Below, piece after piece: positions 14,973 through 36,505 of a stretch of 37,823 nt of DNA. The position numbers and the translations under genes are program-made. Below the pieces are notes generated by a model. That model was not told the DNA's origin and ran no database searches. It saw only the letters and a program-made list of their open reading frames with translations. The first letter of the stretch is position 1. The number at the start of each line of letters is the position of its first letter. Location of the stretch: assembly GCA_902569865.1 (NCBI GenBank), contig CACFVT010000009.1, positions 1 through 37,823 on the forward strand, given 5' to 3'. The DNA comes from an uncultured Alphaproteobacteria bacterium (GTDB taxonomy: Bacteria > Pseudomonadota > Alphaproteobacteria > HIMB59 > GCA-002718135).

Positions 14973-15000
14973 GATAAACTAAATATATAAATTATTGATA

Positions 15001-16863
15001 ATGGAAATACACTTAATTTTTACTAAAAATAATAAATTAAAATTCTCTATTTTAAATAATCAATATCGTCATGGAGATTTTAAAATTTGTTTTTCTCTTG
15101 TTTATTCTATTCAAGAAATTGATGGTGGAATAATTTCAAAAAAAGTTGGCAGATATTATGAAATTCATTCTGAACAAGATGAAGTAATTTTTACACTACA
15201 GGAACCAAGGATAGGCTCTTATAATCTCTCATGTGGTCCAGAGGGATTATTTGTTATAGGAAAAAATAATCAAATTATTGAGTGTGAAATTACTTCTCTT
15301 GAATTTGAAAATCCTATACCGCAAATTTTATATTCTGATGACTATGATAATATATTTGATCCAGTAATCCCGCTTCCTAATATTTTAAAATTAGAAAAAG
15401 AAACTATTCATATTCAAAATTTAGATTTTAAAATATCTCCTGAAGAAAAAGATTTTTTTAAAAATTTTGATTATTTATTACAAGTATCTGATATAAAATT
15501 TAATGTATCAACAGGACATTCTATATTTTTTAAAAAACAAAATTTAAGATCTGAAGAATATAAAATTAACATTAAGACAGATTCAATTTTGATTGAGTAT
15601 GCTGATTATGGAGGAAAGTTTTATTCAATAATAACTCTGATACAGCTTATAAATTTTTATAATACAAATTTACCTCTTGGTATAATTGAAGACAGACCAT
15701 CTTTAAATTGGAGAGGTATGCATTTGGATTGCGCAAGACAATTTTATACAATTGACGAAATAAAAAGACTTATGAACTATATGTGCTTTTTTAAACTAAA
15801 TCGCTTCCATTGGCATTTAACAGATAATGAAGCTTGGAGAGTTGAATTAGATTGTTATCCAAATTTAACTAAAGTGGGTGCTTTCAGAGGCTATGATCAT
15901 ACAATTCCACCTTTCTATGGAACTGGTTATAATAAAACAGGAGGTTATTATTCCCGCAATCAAATCCATGAGTTAATTGAGTATGCAAGACAAAGAAATA
16001 TTGAAATCATGCCAGAGATTGATTTACCAGCGCACTCTTGGACATTGCTTCAAGTTATGCCCGAGTTAAGAGATTCAAGCTCTAATATTATTTCAGAAGA
16101 TGTAGGTAATTATACCGATAATACAATTAATCCTGCAGTAGAGGAGACAAATATTTTTTTAAAAAATATTTTGGAAGAATTAAGTGAAATTTTTTCATTT
16201 AACATAATTCATGTTGGGGTTGATGAAAGACCAAAAGAGTCATGGGAAGGATCGCCCAAAGTAATTGAATATATGAAAAAAAATAACATTGAGTCGTTTG
16301 ATGAATTGCAAGATGATTATATGAATAATATTATTAGTATTTTAAAAAGTTCAAATAAGATAACTGCGGCTTGGAACGAAGCAGCACTACCTCCTCATAA
16401 TGATATAGGCTCTGCTGGTAGCGCAGGAAAAGTTGATAAAAATTGCATTATCTTTGCCTGGGAGCATCCTGATGTCGGATTGATGTCAGCAAAAAAAGGT
16501 TTTAAAACAGTTCTTTGCCCAGGTCACAAAACATACTTTGATATGGCTTACAATAATTCTACTTTTGAAAGAGGAATTTGTTGGGCTGCCACAATAGAAG
16601 TAAAAGAAGTTTTTGATTGGAAGCCTCTTCAAGATTATGAAACTGATGATTTAAAAAATGTACTAGGTATACAAGGTCAACTTTGGTCAGAAACAATAAC
16701 AAATAAAGATTATTTTGATAAAATGATTAATCCTCGCCTAGCTGCACTAGCAGAAATTGCTTGGTGCACAAAAGCAAAAAGATCATGGCATCAGTTTAGA
16801 TCATCATTATTAAATAATTTAGAATATTTATCAAAATTGGGGTGGAAGTTTCATAATTTTTAG
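15001..16863 (+). CDS. GH20 beta-N-acetylhexosaminidase, apparently without a signal peptide
   Basis: 'LNWRGMHLDCARQFYTIDEIKRL', 'NRFHWHLTDNEAWRVELDCYPNLTKVGAFRG', catalytic 'IIHVGVDERPKESW'. Start at ATG 15001; the supplied ORF used TTG 14995. Confidence 0.88.
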   Translation: MEIHLIFTKNNKLKFSILNNQYRHGDFKICFSLVYSIQEIDGGIISKKVGRYYEIHSEQDEVIFTLQEPRIGSYNLSCGPEGLFVIGKNNQIIECEITSLEFENPIPQILYSDDYDNIFDPVIPLPNILKLEKETIHIQNLDFKISPEEKDFFKNFDYLLQVSDIKFNVSTGHSIFFKKQNLRSEEYKINIKTDSILIEYADYGGKFYSIITLIQLINFYNTNLPLGIIEDRPSLNWRGMHLDCARQFYTIDEIKRLMNYMCFFKLNRFHWHLTDNEAWRVELDCYPNLTKVGAFRGYDHTIPPFYGTGYNKTGGYYSRNQIHELIEYARQRNIEIMPEIDLPAHSWTLLQVMPELRDSSSNIISEDVGNYTDNTINPAVEETNIFLKNILEELSEIFSFNIIHVGVDERPKESWEGSPKVIEYMKKNNIESFDELQDDYMNNIISILKSSNKITAAWNEAALPPHNDIGSAGSAGKVDKNCIIFAWEHPDVGLMSAKKGFKTVLCPGHKTYFDMAYNNSTFERGICWAATIEVKEVFDWKPLQDYETDDLKNVLGIQGQLWSETITNKDYFDKMINPRLAALAEIAWCTKAKRSWHQFRSSLLNNLEYLSKLGWKFHNF

Positions 16864-16892
16864 TATTATGATTGATATTTTAGGATGAAAAA

Positions 16893-18041
16893 ATGAAAAT
16901 CGGAGCAGTAGGACTAGGAAACAGAATAGCACACGTTTATCATGAATTATCTCAAATTAATAAAGATGCAGAATTAATTGCCTATGTTGACCCTCTACCA
17001 ATAGGTAGGGAATATGCAGAAAAAAATGAATTTTTTCCCAGAAAAGAATATTCCACATTAAATGAAATGTTATCTAATGAAAAATTAGATCTTCTAATGA
17101 TAGGGTCCCCAAACCATCTTCATCTAGAGCATATAAAAATTGGACTCAATTCAGGTATCAAAATTTTTGCTGAAAAACCAATTGTTGTTAATGAAAATCA
17201 ATCTTTTGAATTAGCAAAGCTGTTAGGTGAGTTTGGCCAAGATCAAGTCTTGGTAGGTTTGGTTTTGAGATATTCCCAGCATGCTAGATCAGTTAGAGAT
17301 TTAATAAATAAAAATGTTTTGGGCAATATTGTTTCTATTGAAGCTTCGGAACATATTATGCCCTGGCACGGTGGTTTTTTTATGCGTAATTGGCGTCGAA
17401 AAGAAAAATTTTCTGGCGGATTTATGTTAGAAAAGTGTTGTCATGATATAGATTTTTATAACATGATAGCAGGATGTAGAGTTAAAAGAGTTGCAAGTTT
17501 TGGAGGCAGAAGTTCATTTATTCCTAAAAATAAACCAAAAGAAAATTTAGAAGAATTTTCAAAATATAATTTGTTTGGATGGGAGGCAAAAGAAAATGTA
17601 TTTGATAGTGATGCTGACATTGTTGATCACCAAGTAGCAATAATTGAATATGAAAATGGAGCGACTTTAGCTTTTCACACAAACATGCGCGTACCCGATG
17701 AGTTTAGACGCTTTGCTGTAATAGGAACAGATGGAATGGTAGAAGGTGATTTTGTTCGAGGTTTTTTAAAAGCACACGATCAACAAAATAATATTATTTT
17801 AGATGAAGATTATGGTGCAGCGTTTGGAATGGTAAAAGGTCATTATGGTGCAGATAATCTTATGTTAAAAGATATTAACCAACATTTAACCAATTCTGAT
17901 AAAATAAATTTACCAGTGGGTGTCAAAGATTGTATTGAGGCAGGTGTTGTTGCTATGAAGTTAGATGAATCAAGAAAGACAGGTAAAATTATTGATTTAA
18001 CATCTAGTTGGAATAGGTTAGACAAGGAAATGAAAAAGTAA
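16893..18041 (+). CDS. Gfo/Idh/MocA family NAD(P)-dependent protein
   Basis: 'MKIGAVGLGNRIAHVYHELSQ' Rossmann start, 'MIGSPNHLHLEHIKIGLNSGIKIFAEKPIVV' EKP motif, 'GGFMLEKCCHDIDFYNMI'. Confidence 0.88.
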   Translation: MKIGAVGLGNRIAHVYHELSQINKDAELIAYVDPLPIGREYAEKNEFFPRKEYSTLNEMLSNEKLDLLMIGSPNHLHLEHIKIGLNSGIKIFAEKPIVVNENQSFELAKLLGEFGQDQVLVGLVLRYSQHARSVRDLINKNVLGNIVSIEASEHIMPWHGGFFMRNWRRKEKFSGGFMLEKCCHDIDFYNMIAGCRVKRVASFGGRSSFIPKNKPKENLEEFSKYNLFGWEAKENVFDSDADIVDHQVAIIEYENGATLAFHTNMRVPDEFRRFAVIGTDGMVEGDFVRGFLKAHDQQNNIILDEDYGAAFGMVKGHYGADNLMLKDINQHLTNSDKINLPVGVKDCIEAGVVAMKLDESRKTGKIIDLTSSWNRLDKEMKK

Positions 18042-18043
18042 TA

Positions 18044-18943
18044 ATGAATAAAAAACTAAGATCTTTTAATTCTCCTACATTTTTAGCTTACGCCCTAATA
18101 GCTCCTGCAGCCATTTATATTCTGTTAATTGTTGCGTGGCCAGTTCTTGAAACAATAAGACTATCTTTTACAAACTCTAGTTTAGCTGGAGAGGATTATG
18201 TTGGTTTTGAAAATTATGAAAAAATGCTCTCAAGTAAAAAATTTAATAAAATCGTTACAAGAACTTTTGTTTGGATGTTTTTCTCAGTAAGTTTGAAGTT
18301 AATTATTGGCTTAATTGGAGCAATTTTATTGAATGCTAACTTAAGAGGCCGATCTATGTTTAGGGTTTTAATAATGCCTCCATGGGTGGTTCCAATTGCT
18401 ATAGGTATGCTTGGATGGCTTTGGCTTTATAATGGTTATTTTGGCATAATTGCTGGCGTAGGAATGCATACAGGAATTTTGGATGGCCCCTTTGGTTTTC
18501 TTGCATATAAACAAAGCGCATTTATTTCTACAATTGTAGCTGACGTATGGGTTGGCACTCCTATGGTAACTGTTTTTTTCTTAGCAGCAATGCAAGGAGT
18601 TCCAAGAGATTTATATGAAGCTGCTTATTGTGATGGTGCTTCAAGATGGGACAGATTTTTTAAAATTACACTTCCTCAAATTACACCTGTTATTATTACT
18701 ATGTCTATATTATCGGCAATTTGGACTTTCAATTCTTTTGAAATAATTTGGATATTGACTGAAGGAGGACCAAGAGGTGCAACAACCACTCTAATTATTG
18801 ATACATATAAGCAGGCACTAGGTAATTATAAGTTTGGAAGAGGTGCCGCAAGAGCAGTTGTTGTAATGATTTTATTAACTTTATTTGCAGGTTTTTACCT
18901 AGCTCTTTTAGCTAGGATTAATAAGAAGATTTCTCATGGATAA
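18044..18943 (+). CDS. Carbohydrate ABC transporter permease (MalF/UgpA type)
   Basis: Multi-TM; EAA loop 'VPRDLYEAAYCDGASRWDRFFKITLPQITPVI'. Confidence 0.9.
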   Translation: MNKKLRSFNSPTFLAYALIAPAAIYILLIVAWPVLETIRLSFTNSSLAGEDYVGFENYEKMLSSKKFNKIVTRTFVWMFFSVSLKLIIGLIGAILLNANLRGRSMFRVLIMPPWVVPIAIGMLGWLWLYNGYFGIIAGVGMHTGILDGPFGFLAYKQSAFISTIVADVWVGTPMVTVFFLAAMQGVPRDLYEAAYCDGASRWDRFFKITLPQITPVIITMSILSAIWTFNSFEIIWILTEGGPRGATTTLIIDTYKQALGNYKFGRGAARAVVVMILLTLFAGFYLALLARINKKISHG

Positions 18944-19775
18944 ATATACATTTTTAGAAAAGTTTTTTATTTATTCGGCAATCTTTATTTTTATGACATT
19001 TATCCTTTTACCCTTTGTAGAAATGTTTTATGCATCTCTTCGCCCATTAGATCATTTATTTAGATCACCTTATCAATTCTATTCAGATGATTTATCATTC
19101 TGGGCTTACAGCGAAATGTGGAACACAGTACCTATGTTAGGAAGATATATATTTAATAGTTTTTTCTTAGCATCATCGGTAGCAATTTTTACTTTACTTT
19201 TTGTTATTCCTGCAGCTTATTCATACGCAAGATTTAATTTTCCATTTAAAAATTCTTCCTTGTATATTTTATTAGCAATTAATATGTTTTCTGGTGCTGT
19301 ACTATTAATCCCTTTATACAAAGTACTAAGAACATTTGGACTTTTGAACAGTTATCAAGCGATGATAGTGCCTGGTGTAGCTTTTTTAATACCTACATCA
19401 ATATGGTTATTAAAATCTTATTTTGAAAAAATACCTGTAGATCTTGAAGAGGCAGCTTTTGTTGATGGCGCTTCTCGAGTTCAAATTTTAAGACATATTA
19501 TAGCACCTCTAAGTACACCAGGATTAGTCGTTGTAGGAATTTATGCTTTCATCGGTGCCTATGCTCAACAATTCTTATTTGCTATAACTTTTAACCAAAA
19601 GAAAGAATATATGCCAATACCTTCAGGATTGTATGAGTTTATTGGATATCAAAGTGTCAAATGGAATGAAATGATGGCAGCCTCATTAGTTGGAATAGCT
19701 CCCGTATTGATTTTATTTATATTTTTACAAAAATATATTGTGGAAGGATTAACTGCTGGAGCAGTTAAAAACTAG
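18936..19775 (+). CDS. Carbohydrate ABC transporter permease (MalG/UgpE type), copy A
   Basis: EAA loop 'IPVDLEEAAFVDGASRVQILRHIIAPLSTPGLVVVGIYAF'; starts inside the end of the preceding permease gene. Confidence 0.9.
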   Translation: MDKYTFLEKFFIYSAIFIFMTFILLPFVEMFYASLRPLDHLFRSPYQFYSDDLSFWAYSEMWNTVPMLGRYIFNSFFLASSVAIFTLLFVIPAAYSYARFNFPFKNSSLYILLAINMFSGAVLLIPLYKVLRTFGLLNSYQAMIVPGVAFLIPTSIWLLKSYFEKIPVDLEEAAFVDGASRVQILRHIIAPLSTPGLVVVGIYAFIGAYAQQFLFAITFNQKKEYMPIPSGLYEFIGYQSVKWNEMMAASLVGIAPVLILFIFLQKYIVEGLTAGAVKN

Positions 19776-19776
19776 A

Positions 19777-20616
19777 TTGGATAAATATAAACTTTACGAA
19801 AAAATAATTTTATATTTTTCAATTACAATTTTTTTAATTTTTATATTACTTCCTTTTGTTGAAATGTTTTATGCATCTCTTCGCCCATTAGATCATTTAT
19901 TTAGATCACCTTATCAATTTTTTTCTGATGACTTATCTTTCTGGGCTTATAGAGAAATGTGGAATACAGTACCAATGCTTCCAAGATATATATTTAATAG
20001 TTTTTTTCTTGCATCAGTTACTTCATTAATTACTCTTTTATTTGTTATTCCCGCTGCTTATTCATACGCAAGATTTAATTTTCCTTTCAAAAATTCTTCC
20101 TTGTATATTTTATTAGCAATTAATATGTTTTCTGGAGCAGTGCTTCTTATTCCTTTATATAAAGTTCTCAGAACTTTTGGATTACTAAATACATATCAGG
20201 CAATGATAGTACCTGGTGTAGCTTTTTTAATTCCAACTGCTATTTGGCTACTAAAATCATATTTTGAAAAAATACCTGTAGATCTTGAAGAGGCAGCTTT
20301 TGTTGACGGCGCTTCTCGAGTTCAAATTTTAAGACATATTATAGCACCTCTAAGTACACCAGGATTAGTCGTTGTAGGAATCTATGCATTCATCGGTGCC
20401 TATGCTCAACAATTCTTATTTGCTATAACTTTTAACCAAAAGAAAGAATATATGCCAATTCCATCCGGATTGTATGAATTTATTGGTTATACTACGGTAA
20501 AATGGAATGAAATGATGGCAGCCTCATTAGTTGGAATAGCCCCTGTTTTAATTGTCTTTTTATTTCTTCAAAAATATATTGTGGAAGGATTAACCTCAGG
20601 AGCGGTAAAAAACTAG
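19777..20616 (+). CDS. Carbohydrate ABC transporter permease (MalG/UgpE type), copy B (tandem duplicate, TTG start)
   Basis: 279 aa, same length as copy A; by hand count about 26 differences of 279 residues. Starts with TTG 2 nt after the copy A stop. Confidence 0.88.
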   Translation: MDKYKLYEKIILYFSITIFLIFILLPFVEMFYASLRPLDHLFRSPYQFFSDDLSFWAYREMWNTVPMLPRYIFNSFFLASVTSLITLLFVIPAAYSYARFNFPFKNSSLYILLAINMFSGAVLLIPLYKVLRTFGLLNTYQAMIVPGVAFLIPTAIWLLKSYFEKIPVDLEEAAFVDGASRVQILRHIIAPLSTPGLVVVGIYAFIGAYAQQFLFAITFNQKKEYMPIPSGLYEFIGYTTVKWNEMMAASLVGIAPVLIVFLFLQKYIVEGLTSGAVKN

Positions 20617-20651
20617 CCTTAAACACTAAAACAACCTTGATCCATATTAGT

Positions 20652-20672
20652 ACTTAATGTTAAGTGTTAAGT
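20652..20672. promoter_or_regulatory. Cluster of ACTTAA/TTAAGT half-sites upstream of the solute-binding protein gene
   Basis: ACTTAA-TG-TTAAGT-G-TTAAGT: an inverted repeat plus a direct repeat, about 15 nt upstream of the ATG at 20689. Confidence 0.3.
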
Positions 20673-20688
20673 AAATAATGGAGGAAAT

Positions 20689-21900
20689 ATGAATTTAAAA
20701 AAACTATCTTCATTTCTTATAATTTCAATATTTTCACTCACTGGTTTTAAATCTTTTGCAGCTGATGTGCATGGGGTTTTTTGCGGTAGTGATCTTAGAC
20801 CTAATTACGTAGAAATAGCTGATGAGTATATGAAAAACAATCCTGGTGTTAATGTAACATTAGAGGCTGTTCCTTGGGGTACTTGTCAGGATAAAGTAAT
20901 AAATCTTGCAATTGCAGGAGATCCAGTTGCATTTTCTTATGTAGGTTCAAGAACTTTAAAAGGTCTTGCAGAGAATGGACATATTTTAGAAACAAATATT
21001 CCTGCTTCTCAACAAGCGATGTATCAACCAGGTATTTTGAATACAGTTACGCATATGGGCAAAACTTGGGGTTTTCCTCACGCGTTTTCAACTAAAGCTC
21101 TTTTCATGAATTGTGGTTTACTAGAGCAAGCAGGTGTTGCTTGTGAAGGACCTCAAACATGGGATGAATTATATTCAATGGCAGAAGCTGTGACAAATAA
21201 TGTTGCTGGAGTTGCTGGTATTGGTTTAGCAGGTAAAGATTTTGATAATACAATGCACCAATTCTTAAACTATCTCTATAGTAATGGAGGGCAAGTTATT
21301 GATCCTTTAACTAATGAGATAACTCTTGATTCATCTAATGCAGTTCAAGCTCTAGAATTTTATGGAAGACTTGCTAACGTAGCTCAAGAAGGTCCATTAG
21401 CTTGGGAGAGATCTCAACTTACTGAACTTTTCAATGATGAAAAAATTGCAATGTACATTAATGGCCCTTGGGGAAGAGGTCAGCATAAGGAAGGATTAAA
21501 TGTAAGTACAGTTAGAATTCCTGCTGGACCACAAGGTAGTCAAGGCACTCTACTAATCACAGATAGTATTGCTGTTTTCAATAATACAGGCGTTGAAGAT
21601 CATGCAATGGCATTAGCAAGTATAATTTCATCAGGTGATTCTCAATACAGCTTAGATACTGATTGGGGTTTAACTCCAATTATGCAGTATCCTCAAATTG
21701 GAAAAGTAGCACCATACAATGAAGATTATTGGATGATGTTTATTGATGCAATCGGTGATGGAGGACCTGAGCCATTATTTGTTGATTACAAAGCATTTCA
21801 AGCTGTTATGAACTCAATGATTCAAGGAGCAATTCTTGAAGAAGGAGATCCTGCAGATTTAGTTGCTGAAGCAGCTGAAGAATTGGAAGAATATAAGTAA
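20689..21900 (+). CDS. Extracellular carbohydrate solute-binding protein (family 1) with signal peptide
   Basis: Signal peptide 'MNLKKLSSFLIISIFSLTGFKSFAA', then 'VPWGTCQDKVINLAIAGDPVAFSYVGSRTLKGLAENGHI', 'EKIAMYINGPWGRGQ'; GGAGG RBS. Confidence 0.9.
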   Translation: MNLKKLSSFLIISIFSLTGFKSFAADVHGVFCGSDLRPNYVEIADEYMKNNPGVNVTLEAVPWGTCQDKVINLAIAGDPVAFSYVGSRTLKGLAENGHILETNIPASQQAMYQPGILNTVTHMGKTWGFPHAFSTKALFMNCGLLEQAGVACEGPQTWDELYSMAEAVTNNVAGVAGIGLAGKDFDNTMHQFLNYLYSNGGQVIDPLTNEITLDSSNAVQALEFYGRLANVAQEGPLAWERSQLTELFNDEKIAMYINGPWGRGQHKEGLNVSTVRIPAGPQGSQGTLLITDSIAVFNNTGVEDHAMALASIISSGDSQYSLDTDWGLTPIMQYPQIGKVAPYNEDYWMMFIDAIGDGGPEPLFVDYKAFQAVMNSMIQGAILEEGDPADLVAEAAEELEEYK

Positions 21901-21913
21901 AATCTTTTTATTA

Positions 21914-21936
21914 TGCTGGGGTTTTTAACCCCAGCA
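21914..21936 (+). terminator. 10-bp stem / 3-nt loop hairpin after the solute-binding protein gene (attenuator or 3'-stabilising stem-loop)
   Basis: TGCTGGGGTT-TTT-AACCCCAGCA, perfect stem 14 nt after the stop codon; no following T-tract, so a classic intrinsic terminator is uncertain. Confidence 0.7.
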
Positions 21937-21952
21937 AATATCTCACAAAAGT

Positions 21953-22681
21953 ATGAGCAGTCTAAGTAAAAAATATTTATCTATAATTAGTAAAATTTTA
22001 GACAAAATCTCAGATGAAGAAGAAAAGAAAATTACAGATTGTGCAAAGATCATTAGAGACTCATATAAAAAAGGAGGTCAGTTATATATTTTTGGAACTG
22101 GACATTCTCGACTTTTAGGTGAAGAAGCTTTTCATAGAGCAGGTGGTTTTGCTGCAGCTTGTCCTATAAGAGATGATAATCTTACTTTTAAAAAAGGTGC
22201 AAAAAAAGCAACTTCATTGGAAAGAACTCCAAATGTTGCTAGAAAAGCTCTTAATAAATATAATATTACAAAAAAAGATATTTTAATGATTGTATCAAAC
22301 TCTGGGGTTAATCACGCTCCAGTAGAAGCTGCAATAATAGCTAAAGAAAAGAACATTAAAACTATTGCTCTAACATCTGTTAAATATTCAAAAAAGGCTC
22401 CACTATCAAAACTTAATAAGAAATTGTATGAAATAGTAGATATTTTTATAGATAATAAAATTCCCCCTGGCGATACAGTTATAAGTGTGAGCAAATTTAG
22501 TGTTGGTCCTGTATCTACAATAACAGGATCTTTCATTTTAAATGCTATATTGATTGAAGTAGCATCAATGTTAAAAACTGAAAAAATTTTTCCTTTTTAT
22601 ATTAGCTCAAATATGCCTAACGCAACTAAAAATAATACTAAACTTGAAAACAAATTTAGAAAACAAAACCCGCATTTATAA
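21953..22681 (+). CDS. SIS-domain protein (UPF0309-like)
   Basis: 'GQLYIFGTGHSRLLGEEAFHRAGGFAAACPI', 'DILMIVSNSGVNHAPVEAAIIAKEKNIKTIALTS'. Confidence 0.8.
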   Translation: MSSLSKKYLSIISKILDKISDEEEKKITDCAKIIRDSYKKGGQLYIFGTGHSRLLGEEAFHRAGGFAAACPIRDDNLTFKKGAKKATSLERTPNVARKALNKYNITKKDILMIVSNSGVNHAPVEAAIIAKEKNIKTIALTSVKYSKKAPLSKLNKKLYEIVDIFIDNKIPPGDTVISVSKFSVGPVSTITGSFILNAILIEVASMLKTEKIFPFYISSNMPNATKNNTKLENKFRKQNPHL

Positions 22682-22738
22682 TATGTTAGTTTAAAAAAAA
22701 ATTTTAATAAATATTTAGGATTAATTATTAGGAATAAC

Positions 22739-23821
22739 ATGAGTAAAATTTCAGGTACTATAGTTAACTATGATTCAACTTTTCAAGCTGAAATTGAGTT
22801 TGATAAATCAATAAATAAAATAAATAAAACCAATCAACTCAATAATAAAAATATTATAATACCTGGTTTTATTGACCTTCATTGTCATGGGGGTGGTGGG
22901 TTTGATACAATGGATGGTAAAGATGCAATAGAGCGGATGTCTAAATATCATTTATCAAAAGGAACAACTTCTTTATTACCTACAACTTGGACGAGTACTT
23001 ATGATCATACTTGCAAATCACTTACTGAATTTAATTCATTGATTAATGAAAATTCAAATATCTTAGGTGTACATTTAGAAGGTCCCTTTATAAATCCCAA
23101 TAAATTAGGTGCTCAGCCACCTAGAGCCTTATTGCCATCTAAAGAATTTATTGAAGGAATTTCAAAATTAGCACCAATTAAAACAATTACATTAGCACCA
23201 GAACTAGATGGTATGAGTGATTTTATACCTTTTTTAATTGAAAAAAATATTAATGTTCAATTTGGTCATTCACTTGCAGACAGTGATTGTTGTGAAAAAT
23301 ATATGAATAAATACAAAGTAAGTTTTACCCATTTATATAATGCTATGTCAGCTAATAATCATAGAAAACCAGGAGTTTTGTCTGCAGCTCTATTAAAAGG
23401 TAAATTTGCTGAAATTATTTGTGATATGAATCATGTAAGTAAAGAGTCAATTCTCATAGCAAAAAAATGTATTCCTGATTTATATGCAATAACTGACTCA
23501 ATAAGTGCATGTGGATTATGCAACGGAGACTATAAATTTGCTGAAGCAGATATCACTAAGACTGATAAAAAAGTTGTAATGAAAGAATCAGGTACTTTGG
23601 CAGGGAGTATAGTTAATATGTATGAAACTTTTTTAAATTTATTAAAAATAAATTTACCTATGGAAGATGTTGTAAAAATGACAAGTTTTTCAGCAGCAAA
23701 ATATTTAAATGATGATACTATCGGCTATATAAAAGAGGGTTATAGATCAAATTTTTTAGTTTTAGATCAAGATTTAAATATTGAAAAAATTTATTTAAAT
23801 GGACATTTAGTTAATGACTAA
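22739..23821 (+). CDS. nagA: N-acetylglucosamine-6-phosphate deacetylase
   Basis: 'GFIDLHCHGGGGFDTMDG', 'GVHLEGPFINPNKLGAQPP', 'QFGHSLAD', 'FTHLYNAMSANNHRKPG', 'YAITDSISACG', 'GTLAGSIVNMYE'. Confidence 0.9.
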   Translation: MSKISGTIVNYDSTFQAEIEFDKSINKINKTNQLNNKNIIIPGFIDLHCHGGGGFDTMDGKDAIERMSKYHLSKGTTSLLPTTWTSTYDHTCKSLTEFNSLINENSNILGVHLEGPFINPNKLGAQPPRALLPSKEFIEGISKLAPIKTITLAPELDGMSDFIPFLIEKNINVQFGHSLADSDCCEKYMNKYKVSFTHLYNAMSANNHRKPGVLSAALLKGKFAEIICDMNHVSKESILIAKKCIPDLYAITDSISACGLCNGDYKFAEADITKTDKKVVMKESGTLAGSIVNMYETFLNLLKINLPMEDVVKMTSFSAAKYLNDDTIGYIKEGYRSNFLVLDQDLNIEKIYLNGHLVND

Positions 23822-24836
23822 TTCTTTAGTCTTAAATGAAGCACTCAGCATACCAAGTGTTATAGGTAAATTTGCTTTTAGTGATAAAAATCCATATCAG
23901 GAAATAACTGATTTGATTAATCAAAAAAAAATAAAATATATTGTTACTATTGCTAGAGGAACTTCAGATTGTGCCGCATTATATAGCTCTTATATTTTTG
24001 CAAAATATCTAGGATTGCCATCTTACAGTATGCCACCATCAATTATTACTTTGGAAAAATCAAAATTTAATTTTTCAGAAGCTTTAGTTATTGTTATTAG
24101 TCAATCAGGTAAAAGTAATGATTTAATTGAGTGTGAAAAAAAATCACAAGAATTTGGCGCCATTACTATGTTAATATCTAATAATGAAAACAGCCCTATT
24201 ATCAATTCTGCTAATTATTTCTTTAATATGTTTGCAGGTGTAGAAAAAAGTGTTGCTGCTACTAAATCATTTGTACAAACTTTATTAATATTAAAAAAAC
24301 TAGTTTTTATTTGCCAAGGAAAACATAAAATTAATGATAATATAAAAATATTGAGTGATACGCTTTTGAAGGATGCAAATAATCAATGGAGTATTAATCT
24401 AGTAGATAATAGTATTAATTCAGGTTTTATACTTGGAAGGGGTGTTGGTTTTGCACTTTCCAACGAGATGTCTCTAAAATTCAAGGAATTATGTCAAGAA
24501 ATGATTGAGCCTTTTAGTAGTGCAGAAGTGATGCATGGACCAAAAAGTCTAATTCAAGATACATTTAAAATTTTTACTTTAAGTATGAATGATAAAAGTG
24601 GTTTAACTGTTCAAAATGACAGTAATGAAATTACAAAATATACAAAACTGGTCTATAATATTTCTTCAGCTAAAGACCAAAGTAAAAATTTTTACTTTCC
24701 TCCAGATCAAATTACAGAATTTGACTCGATAGTTATAATGTCAAAATTTTATCCATGGATTGTTCGCTATACTCAAAATAAAGGACTTGATCCAGATAAG
24801 CCTCGTTATTTAACTAAAGTTACTCAAACTTTTTAA
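23814..24836 (+). CDS. SIS-domain aminosugar-phosphate deaminase/isomerase (NagB-II/AgaS/GlmS-C-like)
   Basis: 'IVTIARGTSDCAALYSSYIFAKYLGLPS', 'LVIVISQSGKSNDLIECEKKSQEFGAIT', 'GVEKSVAATKSFVQTLL', 'GRGVGFALSNEMSLKFKELCQEMIEPFSSAEVMHGPKSLI'. Confidence 0.87.
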   Translation: MTNSLVLNEALSIPSVIGKFAFSDKNPYQEITDLINQKKIKYIVTIARGTSDCAALYSSYIFAKYLGLPSYSMPPSIITLEKSKFNFSEALVIVISQSGKSNDLIECEKKSQEFGAITMLISNNENSPIINSANYFFNMFAGVEKSVAATKSFVQTLLILKKLVFICQGKHKINDNIKILSDTLLKDANNQWSINLVDNSINSGFILGRGVGFALSNEMSLKFKELCQEMIEPFSSAEVMHGPKSLIQDTFKIFTLSMNDKSGLTVQNDSNEITKYTKLVYNISSAKDQSKNFYFPPDQITEFDSIVIMSKFYPWIVRYTQNKGLDPDKPRYLTKVTQTF

Positions 24837-24840
24837 TATT

Positions 24841-26457
24841 TTGGAAAATTTTGACATAGTCCTAGTTGGTGCTGGTTCAGCAGGGTGTATTGTAGCTAAT
24901 CAGATAATTAATAGTACTAATTATAAAGTATTGTTAATAGAGGCTGGACCAAGTGATAACAACTTAACTATCCAAGTACCTCTTGGTTATGGAATGACCT
25001 TTTATCATAAAAAAATGAATTGGAATTTTTATTCAGAAATTCAAAAAAATTTACATAATCGAGAAATTTATTATCCACGTGGTAAGGTTTTAGGAGGTTC
25101 AGGCTCTATTAATGCCATGATCTATGCAAGAGGCTTGCGCTCTGATTTTGAAAATTGGGATTTAAGTAAAGATTGGTCATGGGAGAATATTAAAACAACA
25201 TATGATCAAATAGAATTTGCTGTTAATAATAAGACAAAAAGATTACCTTCTAATAAAATTCCTGTAAATGATATTAGCACACAACATCATTCAATTCTAA
25301 AGAATTTTTTTGATGCATCTAATGATTTTAATTTTACTTTTAATAAACAACTTAAAAGCTCAATTGAAAATCAAGTAGGTAATTATAATGTTAACATATT
25401 TAAAGGTTTTAGAACTTCATCATCTAAAGTATTTTTAAAACCAATAAAAAGCCATCCTAATTTAACTATTTTTACTAAAACAGAAGTTCTAAAATTAAAT
25501 TACAAAAATAAAAAAATAGTAAGCTTAGATATTAAGCATAAAAATAAAATAATTTCTGTGAAACCTAATATTGGAACCATACTTTCTAGTGGCTCCATTA
25601 TGACACCTTATCTGTTATTAAAATCAGGGATAGGAAATGCAAGTGATTTAAAAGAATTGAATTTACCAGTTAATTTACATAGCGCTCATGTTGGTAAAAA
25701 TTTTCAAGATCATTTAGGCTTAGATTATTTGTATAAAACATTCGCTTCGACCTTAAATAAAGATTTAGGTACTTGGGGTGGAAGAATAAAATCAGTTTTA
25801 AAATATCTCTATAATAGGAGCGGACCACTTTCCTTAAGTTTAAATCAAGGTGGAGGATATATTAATTGGAATTCTCTTGATCCACATCCTAATATTCAAC
25901 TATATTTTAATCCATTAACGTATTCAGTTTCATATAAAAATAGAAGACCTTTACTGAATACTGATAAATTTAATGGTTTTATTCTTGGCTTTAATTCATG
26001 CAGACCTAAAAGTTTAGGTGAAGTAAAACTAAAGTCATTTAAAGACAGTTATTTGCCAAGTATTAATCCAAATTATTTAAGTGATGAAAGAGATATTCAC
26101 GATTTGTATGCAACATTTGATTTTATTAGAAAATTTTCCGCAAATAAAAACATAAGCAATATAATTAAATCTCCAGTTAACATTGATCCTCTAATTGCTA
26201 CAGATCATGAATTGCTTGATCACTTTAAGTCTAATGCGACAACGATTTACCACCCGTGTGGAACATGCAGAATGAGTAAAGATATTGGTACGGGCGTAGT
26301 ATCTGATAAATTGAAAGTTCATGGTTTAGATAATTTATGGATAGTTGATGCTTCAATTATGCCAAATATTACATCAGGAAATATTAATGCACCTGTTATG
26401 ATGTTATCACATTTATCTAGCAAAATTATTTTAGAAGAATTAAAACGACAATATTGA
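24841..26457 (+). CDS. GMC family FAD oxidoreductase (choline-dehydrogenase-like)
   Basis: 'FDIVLVGAGSAGCIVANQI', 'YYPRGKVLGGSGSINAMIYARGLRSDFENW', 'TIYHPCGTCRMSKD', 'LWIVDASIMPNITSGNINAPVMM'; TTG start. Confidence 0.9.
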   Translation: MENFDIVLVGAGSAGCIVANQIINSTNYKVLLIEAGPSDNNLTIQVPLGYGMTFYHKKMNWNFYSEIQKNLHNREIYYPRGKVLGGSGSINAMIYARGLRSDFENWDLSKDWSWENIKTTYDQIEFAVNNKTKRLPSNKIPVNDISTQHHSILKNFFDASNDFNFTFNKQLKSSIENQVGNYNVNIFKGFRTSSSKVFLKPIKSHPNLTIFTKTEVLKLNYKNKKIVSLDIKHKNKIISVKPNIGTILSSGSIMTPYLLLKSGIGNASDLKELNLPVNLHSAHVGKNFQDHLGLDYLYKTFASTLNKDLGTWGGRIKSVLKYLYNRSGPLSLSLNQGGGYINWNSLDPHPNIQLYFNPLTYSVSYKNRRPLLNTDKFNGFILGFNSCRPKSLGEVKLKSFKDSYLPSINPNYLSDERDIHDLYATFDFIRKFSANKNISNIIKSPVNIDPLIATDHELLDHFKSNATTIYHPCGTCRMSKDIGTGVVSDKLKVHGLDNLWIVDASIMPNITSGNINAPVMMLSHLSSKIILEELKRQY

Positions 26458-27560
26458 TGAAAATTACAAAATTAGAAACTTTTACCAAACCATTTGTTAG
26501 CTTTGTTAAAACAACTTTAGAAGATGGCTCTGAAGGATATGGTCAAATGTCTACATATCATGCAGATATCACAGCACAAATATTTCATAAACAAGTTGCA
26601 CCTTGGGTTTTAGGTAAATTATGGACTGATTTTGATGATCTAGAAAATTTAGTTTTAGAAAAAGAACATAAATTTCCAGGCTCATATCTATTAAGAGCAA
26701 TTGCTGGTCTGGATACTGCGCTATGGGATTTAAAAGGTAAATTAGAAAATAAACCTGTTACAACTTTGATTGGAGGCAATGCTGGAAGTCTAAAAGTATA
26801 TGGTTCATCAATGAAAAGAGATATTAGTGCTAATGATGAAGCTGAGCGTTTTAAAAAATTATTTCAAGAAAAAGGAATAGATGCTTTTAAATTTAGAATA
26901 GGTGCTGAGTGTGGAAGAGGACTAGATGAATGGGAAGGCAGAACAGAAAATATTGTTAAAACAATAAATAAATCACTTGATAGTTCTGTAAAAAAATTAG
27001 TTGATGCAAATAGTTGTTTTTCATCTGCTCAAGCAATTGAAGTTGGTAAACTTCTAGAAGATAATAACGTGATTCATTTTGAAGAGCCATGTCCGTATTG
27101 GGAGCCAGAACAAACAAAAGAAGTCACAAATGCACTTTCAATTGATGTTACGGGAGGTGAGCAAGATTGCGACATTCGAATATGGAAAGATATGGTAGAG
27201 AGAAAAATTGTAAATATTTTTCAACCTGATGTAATGTATCTTGGTGGATTAACAAGAACTCTTCAAGTTGCAAAAATAATCGAAGAGGGAGGTTTTATAT
27301 GTACTCCTCATGCTGCAAATTTATCATTAGTTACTATGTGTACAATGCATTTATTAACAGCCATACCTAATGCTGGTCCATATTTAGAACTTTCTATTGA
27401 AGGTGAGGATTATTATCCATGGCAACAAGATCTGTTTTTGAATGATCCTTTTGCAGTAGAAAATGGCTGTGTTACTGTTACAGATCAGCCTGGATGGGGA
27501 ATAAATATTAACCCAGAATGGCTCAATAGTGCTGATTATCAAGTTTCAGAAATTAATTAA
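26457..27560 (+). CDS. Enolase-superfamily protein (mandelate racemase/sugar-acid dehydratase-like)
   Basis: 'GSYLLRAIAGLDTALWDLKGKLENKPVTTLIGG', 'AFKFRIG', 'DANSCFS', 'FEEPCPYWE', 'GGEQDCDI', 'FQPDVMYLGGLTRTLQVAKI', 'TPHAANLSL'. ATG 26457 overlaps the previous stop (TGATG). Confidence 0.85.
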   Translation: MKITKLETFTKPFVSFVKTTLEDGSEGYGQMSTYHADITAQIFHKQVAPWVLGKLWTDFDDLENLVLEKEHKFPGSYLLRAIAGLDTALWDLKGKLENKPVTTLIGGNAGSLKVYGSSMKRDISANDEAERFKKLFQEKGIDAFKFRIGAECGRGLDEWEGRTENIVKTINKSLDSSVKKLVDANSCFSSAQAIEVGKLLEDNNVIHFEEPCPYWEPEQTKEVTNALSIDVTGGEQDCDIRIWKDMVERKIVNIFQPDVMYLGGLTRTLQVAKIIEEGGFICTPHAANLSLVTMCTMHLLTAIPNAGPYLELSIEGEDYYPWQQDLFLNDPFAVENGCVTVTDQPGWGININPEWLNSADYQVSEIN

Positions 27561-35398: not shown

Positions 35399-36505
35399 CT
35401 ATCTAAAAGCTTGTTGTGAGCTATCAAATAAATGGCAATGAGAAGCTGAAAAACCAACTTTAACTGTATCTCCTACTTTAATATTTGAATCACCCTCGGT
35501 TTCGACAACTAGAGGTTCACCTTCTTTTTCTAGATAAAGGAATGTTCCTGATCCTAATTTTTCAACAACAAAAACTTTACTCTCCCAACTTCCATCACCA
35601 TCTTGATTAACAATTAGGTGTTCAGGACGAATACCTAATTGTACTGAATCACCTTCAGAGGCTGATGCTGAAGTTTTTGGAATACTGATTTTTGAAGATC
35701 CCATTAAATCTACTTCCGTCTTATCAATACTTTTACTTGTTATTTTAGTAGAGATAAAATTCATTTTAGGAGATCCAATAAATCCTCCTACAAATAAATT
35801 ATTTGGATCATTGTATAAATCCATAGGTGATCCTTTTTGTGAAACGATACCCTCATCAAGAACAACAATATCATTTGCTAGAGTCATTGCTTCAGTTTGA
35901 TCATGTGTTACATATATCATAGTTGCATTTAGTTGATCGTGCAGTTTTGCTAACTCAACACGCATTTGAACACGAAGTGCAGCATCTAGATTTGATAAAG
36001 GTTCATCAAATAAGAACACTTTTGGTTTACGAGTTATAGCTCTTCCAATAGCAACCCTTTGTCTTTGTCCACCTGATAATTGTTTAGGCTTTCTATGTAA
36101 GTAATCTTCAATTTGAAGTATTCTTGCTGCCTCTTGAACACGTTCATTAATTTCATCTTTTGATCTTTTCTCTAATTTTAGACCAAATGCCATATTATCG
36201 AAAACTGTCATGTGTGGGTATAAGGCATATGATTGGAAAACCATTGCAATGTTTCTTTGTTTTGGTGGTAGATCATTAACTACCTGACCATCAATAGAAA
36301 TAGTTCCTGAATTAATATCTTCTAATCCTGCAATCATTCTCAGCATAGTTGATTTACCACAACCTGATGGTCCAACTAAAACAGTAAAAGATTGACTTTT
36401 TATATCAAGAGATACGTCTTTAATAACATGCACATCTCCATAGTACTTATTAACTGTATTAATATTTATATCTGCCACTTCATCCTCCTTTGAGCGATCT
36501 TTCAA
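35399..36505 (-). CDS. Carbohydrate ABC transporter ATP-binding protein (UgpC/MalK/MsmK type)
   Basis: Walker A 'GPSGCGKST', Q-loop 'MVFQSYALYPHMTVFDN', signature 'LSGGQRQRVAIGRA', Walker B 'VFLFDEPLSNLD', H-loop 'YVTHDQTEAMTLA', C-terminal TOBE-like region with 'LGIRPEHL'. Confidence 0.93.
   Translation of the reverse strand: MKDRSKEDEVADININTVNKYYGDVHVIKDVSLDIKSQSFTVLVGPSGCGKSTMLRMIAGLEDINSGTISIDGQVVNDLPPKQRNIAMVFQSYALYPHMTVFDNMAFGLKLEKRSKDEINERVQEAARILQIEDYLHRKPKQLSGGQRQRVAIGRAITRKPKVFLFDEPLSNLDAALRVQMRVELAKLHDQLNATMIYVTHDQTEAMTLANDIVVLDEGIVSQKGSPMDLYNDPNNLFVGGFIGSPKMNFISTKITSKSIDKTEVDLMGSSKISIPKTSASASEGDSVQLGIRPEHLIVNQDGDGSWESKVFVVEKLGSGTFLYLEKEGEPLVVETEGDSNIKVGDTVKVGFSASHCHLFDSSQQAFR

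Follow-up and report, generated by a model that had tools for sequence, protein, structure and literature searches.

In the genome of a marine alphaproteobacterium of the HIMB59/AEGEAN-169 type, obtained from a single cell, two tandem MalG-type permease genes have been homogenised along part of their length. Judged from sequence comparison, the near identity of the two copies over codons 164-227 is not explained by constraint and is attributed to paralog-to-paralog gene conversion. The history that we consider very probable would have begun with a single tandem duplication of a MalG-type gene before the present two-copy species separated. Short stretches, mainly codons 22-66 and 146-228, would then have undergone repeated ectopic gene conversion, and in the lineage of the window (the whole stretch of 37,823 nucleotides analysed here) approximately 200 bp (19419-19618) would have been overwritten once this lineage had parted from its closest sampled relatives, with copy 2 as the most likely donor and copy 1 as the recipient. 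Crossing over in the same regions would occasionally have led to the loss of one copy, with a hybrid left behind. The islands at approximately codons 1-21, 69-92, 106-145 and 231-279 would mostly have been spared conversion, selection probably keeps the copy-specific residues apart, above all QS/TT at 239-240, and the two permeases are likely to pair, as alternatives, with the same MalF, SBP and ATPase. Of this history, conversion and its recurrence, the single origin and the hybrids are shown by the sequences, while the donor, selection and the alternative transporters are inferred.

The mechanism itself is already known, and the locus is a new, well-resolved and unusually clear bacterial case of it. 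Ectopic conversion between duplicate bacterial genes has been described for the Salmonella tuf genes (PMC5485169), and 26 long-lasting prokaryotic cases have been reported (PMC6053082). Like the window pair, tuf-type pairs contain tracts in which paralogs are closer than orthologs through copying. However, tuf-type pairs are similar throughout, while the window pair is homogenised in parts only and copy-specific islands persist. The words "transporter" and "permease" are absent from the main text of PMC6053082, and the titles and abstracts listed by a search of open-access papers included no bacterial report of conversion between ABC permeases. Animals offer well-described examples of partial concerted evolution in which functional islands persist; a well-sampled case for a bacterial transporter was not found in the literature searched.

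Two tandem MalG-type genes with patchy divergence

The end of the MalF-type ORF and the start of copy 1 overlap by 8 nt, and the two copies (Table 1), 279 aa each, are in gap-free register with a spacing of 841 nt. The protein identity of about 90% given in the initial annotation was measured as 252/279 residues (253/280 with the stop), at a nucleotide identity of 85.6% and with 74 nt as the longest identical run. The BPD_transp_1 domain (38.8 and 49.7 bits for the two permeases against a Pfam cut-off of 26.4), the EAA loop and the MalG/SugB fold place both products among the MalG-type (CUT1-like) ABC permeases. The fold was recognised by Foldseek (SugB, E 1.8e-10; MalG, E 1.6e-8) from an alignment-based AlphaFold model with a pLDDT of 77.5, which was used only for helix borders and the fold search; a single-sequence model (pLDDT 50) was too poor and was set aside. 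Assignment to the maltose MalG proper was rejected, the scores against the NCBIfam equivalog NF008231 being 111.6 and 114.0 bits with a cut-off of 261. The window copies share the fold, the Pfam family, the EAA loop and the P3 position with the MalG and SugB permeases of known systems (2r6g_G, 7cad_B). Those systems have one MalG-type subunit, whereas in the window a single MalF gene is followed by two MalG-type copies in tandem.

The TTG start of copy 2 is probably real, since no in-frame ATG was found before residue 30. At 19776-19779 this TTG, a start codon kept in 44/44 pairs, stands one base past the copy 1 stop. Coupled and possibly weaker translation of copy 2 is suggested by a TTG start adjoining the stop of copy 1.

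Table 1. Features of the permease locus and its surroundings in the window (nucleotide positions).
Feature	Position	Strand	Evidence
Operon: GH20, Gfo/Idh/MocA, MalF, MalG1, MalG2, SBP, SIS, NagA, NagB-II-like, GMC oxidoreductase, MR/MLE enolase	14995-27560	+	ORFs, Pfam, NCBIfam
MalF-type permease	18044-18943	+	ORF, Pfam BPD_transp_1; best NCBIfam matches UgpA/MalF, below cut-off
MalG-type permease copy 1, ATG start	18936-19775	+	ORF, Pfam, NCBIfam, sequence and fold match to SugB/MalG
Short identical block (0/59 vs 19861-19919), in the hot region of codons 22-66	19020-19078	+	Pair comparison
Residue 69, start of TM2: G (copy 1) or P (copy 2, 19981-19983)	19140-19142	+	43/44 per copy type
Converted tract, copy 1, codons 162-228, includes the EAA loop	19419-19618	+	Hardly any silent difference from copy 2
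EAA loop (ATPase contact), copy 1; copy 2 equivalent 20290-20349	19449-19508	+	Sequence EAAFVDGASRVQILRHIIAP, aligned to MalG EAA region
Q239 S240, copy 1, periplasmic loop P3; T T in copy 2 (20491-20496)	19650-19655	+	Fixed in 44/44 pairs
MalG-type permease copy 2, TTG start, 1 nt past the copy 1 stop	19777-20616	+	ORF, Pfam; TTG in 44/44 pairs, junction conserved
Matching tract in copy 2	20260-20459	+	Block tree and nearest-row search
MalK-type ATPase outside the operon, a candidate shared subunit	35399-36505	-	Pfam ABC_tran, TOBE_2, OB_MalK

The initial annotation described the divergence between the copies as patchy, and its counts were reproduced exactly: 3 differences in 199 positions at 19420-19618, none in the 59-nt block and 22/100 at 19320-19419. 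Codons 1-26 hold the 11 residue differences that it had noted, with the start codon as an additional one, and the EAA loop (EEAAFVDGASRVQILRHIIAP, codons 171-191) indeed lies within the conserved block. Uniform dS, which would have spoken against conversion, was not observed. Degenerate codons for the same residue differ between the copies at 63/240 positions, and these silent differences are clumped beyond chance in a permutation test (sum of squared run lengths, p = 1.5e-4; longest run, p = 0.03). The block has 3/63 silent differences vs 60/177 in the rest of the gene (Fisher p = 1.5e-6, for a block picked after the data had been seen). The 59-nt block was dropped as independent evidence because the closest relative's orthologs are near-identical there too (0/18 and 2/18 silent).

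Gene conversion in the window lineage and in its relatives

The evidence consists of assemblies, for the relatives mostly single-cell ones. Searching 102 genomes of the genus with the block gave matches in 75, with two matches in 47 of those. At the same locus relatives carry either one or two copies, a point that the initial annotation had marked for checking: the complete loci comprise 44 tandem pairs, that of the window among them, and 22 single copies, and a few more are cut by contig ends, such as L111, a two-copy locus whose contig ends within copy 2. The spacing is 841 nt in all complete pairs except L090 (842), copy 1 starts with ATG and copy 2 with TTG in 44/44, and one base separates the copy 1 stop from the TTG at the junctions inspected. 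Near its 3' end, copy 1 of L090 has a frameshift with an early stop (a pseudogene or an assembly error). Because the spacing, the 1-nt junction and the TTG start are common to pairs across species, one shared duplication is indicated; by this sequence evidence it is old, of single origin, predates the tract and is common to several species.

Against the 3/63 silent codons at which the window copies differ in codons 164-227, copy 1 of the window differs from the copy 1 of relatives at 21-25/63 (p 6e-5 or less) and copy 2 from their copy 2 at 12-23/63 (p 0.025 to 1.3e-5). For copies 1 and 2, respectively, the counts are 25/63 and 23/63 with L068, 21/63 and 15/63 with L069 (same genome as G011), and 21/63 and 12/63 with L070. 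Outside the block the pattern is reversed, with 60/177 silent differences between the window paralogs vs 17-40 of about 200 between orthologs. That the tract is specific to the window lineage is borne out by codons 181-200, where silent differences between paralogs number 0/20 in the window vs 12/20 in G011. Silent-site constraint, through RNA structure, an overlapping signal or codon use, could be thought to hold the block identical, since the conserved EAA loop and TM5 fall within it. Orthologs contradict this explanation, which was rejected as having a negligible probability: same-type copies differ across species at 12-25/63 silent codons in the block, and paralogs within other genomes differ there at up to 14 of the 20 codons compared at a time. 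The view that protein constraint alone is insufficient for near-zero silent change is thus upheld.

In the tree of the islands, copy 1 of the window groups with the copy 1 sequences and copy 2 with the copy 2 sequences, the copy types being largely separated across species, and sisterhood of the two window copies is rejected (p = 1.6e-16). In the block tree, copy 1 of the window joins its own copy 2 together with copy 2 of L068-L070, but with the short 192-nt block alone a copy-1 clade including it was not rejected (AU test, p = 0.09). The columns for block and islands were picked after the divergence maps had been seen. Trees of such transporter genes should be read with caution, as they mix copies. 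Among the 102 genomes, the nearest sequence to the copy 1 block of the window is its copy 2 block (99%) and the next is at 94%; of the remaining rows, copy 2 of L070 and that of L069 come closest. Copy 2 is suggested as the likely donor of the shared tract onto copy 1, since the shared block sequence has a copy-2-like ancestry in the block tree, but copy 2 is itself divergent in the block.

The block sequence may originally have been acquired from a different lineage, given that both window copies are rather far from their nearest orthologs there; copy 2 differs from L140 at 15/192 positions in the block and at 11/240 outside. It is nevertheless improbable that the tract was recently replaced in both copies by homologous DNA of another species, with no copying between them. 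Exchange of the whole cassette between species (see below) would favour such import, as would the greater distance from orthologs of the block in both window copies than of neighbouring parts of copy 2. However, one donor tract would have to hit the same stretch twice, a single import followed by copy-to-copy transfer is simpler, and a closer donor was not found among the 102 genomes.

The initial reading as gene conversion is supported not only by the ortholog comparison and the conflict between trees, but also by recurrence across lineages. Tracts of their own without silent differences are present in L073 (codons 3-236), L072 (158-235), L106 (146-228) and L124 (189-225), and many further pairs have no silent differences within codons 22-66. 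Copies merged by reads or by amplification chimeras are a very unlikely source of these patterns. The assemblies are indeed of the single-cell, short-read type, contigs of several relatives break within the repeat, and the identical run of approximately 700 nt in L073 might be collapsed by short reads. On the other hand, identical runs in the window do not exceed 74 nt and three differences lie inside the tract, 44 assemblies show two copies joined in the same way, and the tracts vary between lineages.

Three single-copy loci that fall within the two-copy group are hybrids with a copy 1 5' part and a copy 2 3' part, as expected from deletion between two repeats. The switch lies around codons 161-172 in L110, around 208-237 in L113 and between 12 and 69 in L117, so the breakpoints fall mostly within regions that also convert. 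In effect, the dozens of single-cell genomes are replicates of a natural experiment on a single 840-bp gene pair.

Divergent islands and copy-specific residues

The mean ratio of paralog to ortholog silent divergence is about 0.5 in codons 31-60, 151-180 and 211-225 (0.45-0.52 in 31-60 and 151-180) and 1.2-1.6 in codons 61-90, 106-150, 196-210 and 226-240 (1.17-1.25 in 106-150). A conversion model with uniform initiation implies that most conversion occurs mid-gene (PMC5485169), and the observed profile departs from this prediction in that codons 106-150, which are mid-gene, are high. The islands hold copy-specific residues at 12, 69, 82-83, 139, 239, 240 and 274. Those at 12, 69, 82-83 and 139 are near-fixed between copy types, the TM2 helix starting at 68 in the alignment-based model, and residue 274 (A in copy 1, S in copy 2) is different in 43/43 intact pairs. 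Positions 239-240 align by alignment count with Gln256-Asn257 of Escherichia coli MalG, which lie in P3, the loop that joins TM5 to TM6. P3, the substrate-delivering scoop loop, reaches into the binding protein's sugar site (PMC8660799, PMC11414716). In L073, codons 3-236 are without differences between the copies, yet 239 and 240 differ.

Fixed silent differences between copy types number zero anywhere in the gene. Because the amino acid differences at 239, 240 and 274 are fixed without a single fixed silent one, selection that keeps the copies distinct at 239-240 and 274 is suggested. The islands, as distinct from conversion itself, might instead be unselected leftovers of edge effects and divergence-blocked recombination, a serious possibility to which we give somewhat less than an even chance. 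Repeat ends are expected to convert least, homology being needed on both sides, divergence suppresses pairing, and residues 69 and 82-83 have been converted in L073, L076, L078, L109 and L112. Leftovers of this kind account poorly, however, for the high silent divergence kept by mid-gene codons 106-150 against the uniform-initiation model (PMC5485169), and for the fixation of 239-240 in all pairs without any fixed silent difference.

Divergence peaks kept by selection despite conversion are known from the human red/green opsin and RHCE/RHD type of gene pair (PMC3924837), which, like the window pair, consists of nearby paralogs with mostly low divergence and peaks at the differing residues. For the opsin residues the function is known, whereas a functional role of the residues in the bacterial ABC permeases is inferred here. 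The GOT1p1/GOT1p2 genes of the copepod Tigriopus (PMC3728101) also form a mosaic of converted and diverged parts across lineages; unlike the bacterial pair, they encode eukaryotic enzymes, and the comparison was between populations of a single species.

Some functional divergence of the two permeases would be implied by the selection suggested above. It is possible, though less likely than not, that they form alternative transporters sharing MalF, SBP and ATPase and differing at the periplasmic entrance (69, 139 and P3 239-240), in which case selection would separate those residues, conversion would unify the ATPase-coupling core, and the pair would be a bacterial counterpart of the red/green opsins that is passed from species to species as a single cassette. 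The tracts, the hybrids and the fixed residues together single out two or three positions for functional testing.

Operon context and cassette exchange

The GH20 gene at the start of the operon encodes a hexosaminidase (Pfam), NagA scores above its NCBIfam cut-off and the NagB-II match is below its own. As these GH20, NagA and NagB-type genes adjoin the transporter, import of GlcNAc or chito-oligosaccharides is suggested. The SBP itself matches the generic SBP_bac_1 (Pfam) and is far below the cut-off of the NgcE model. No ATPase gene was found within the operon. Past the NagA/NagB-type genes the operon continues with a GMC oxidoreductase and an MR/MLE enolase (24841-27560), which suggests an added oxidative sugar route. 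An abundance of sugar ABC transporters is a known trait of the HIMB59/AEGEAN-169 group (PMC10308909, PMC11366302).

Between L041 (two copies) and L059 (one copy) the compared neighbours are 90-99% identical and MalF only 71% and SBP 75%. Between L041 and L052, Gfo, MalF and SBP are 94-98% and other genes 58-80% identical. In the part corresponding to 18044-21900 vs its flanks, L041, L051, L052, L059 and L061 display opposite similarity patterns for cassette and flanks. These opposite patterns indicate that species have exchanged the transporter cassette (MalF, the MalG pair, SBP and sometimes Gfo). For HIMB59 and Pelagibacterales, a transporter operon has been documented to pass laterally between the two (PMC12416821). 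A search for plasmids gave only a weak Rhizobium match. Swapping of whole transporter cassettes between species of an abundant marine group calls for caution in its own right.

The upstream part of L053 (genome G001) is 97-100% identical to the window, and its downstream part is 59-85% identical to the window yet 87-97% to L052/L039. A recombination breakpoint in L053 is placed by sequence similarity just past SBP, between SBP and SIS. In L040 (6693-7358), L051 (9223-9930), L054 and L057, a distant SIS gene (42-52%) on the opposite strand takes the place of the one that follows SBP.
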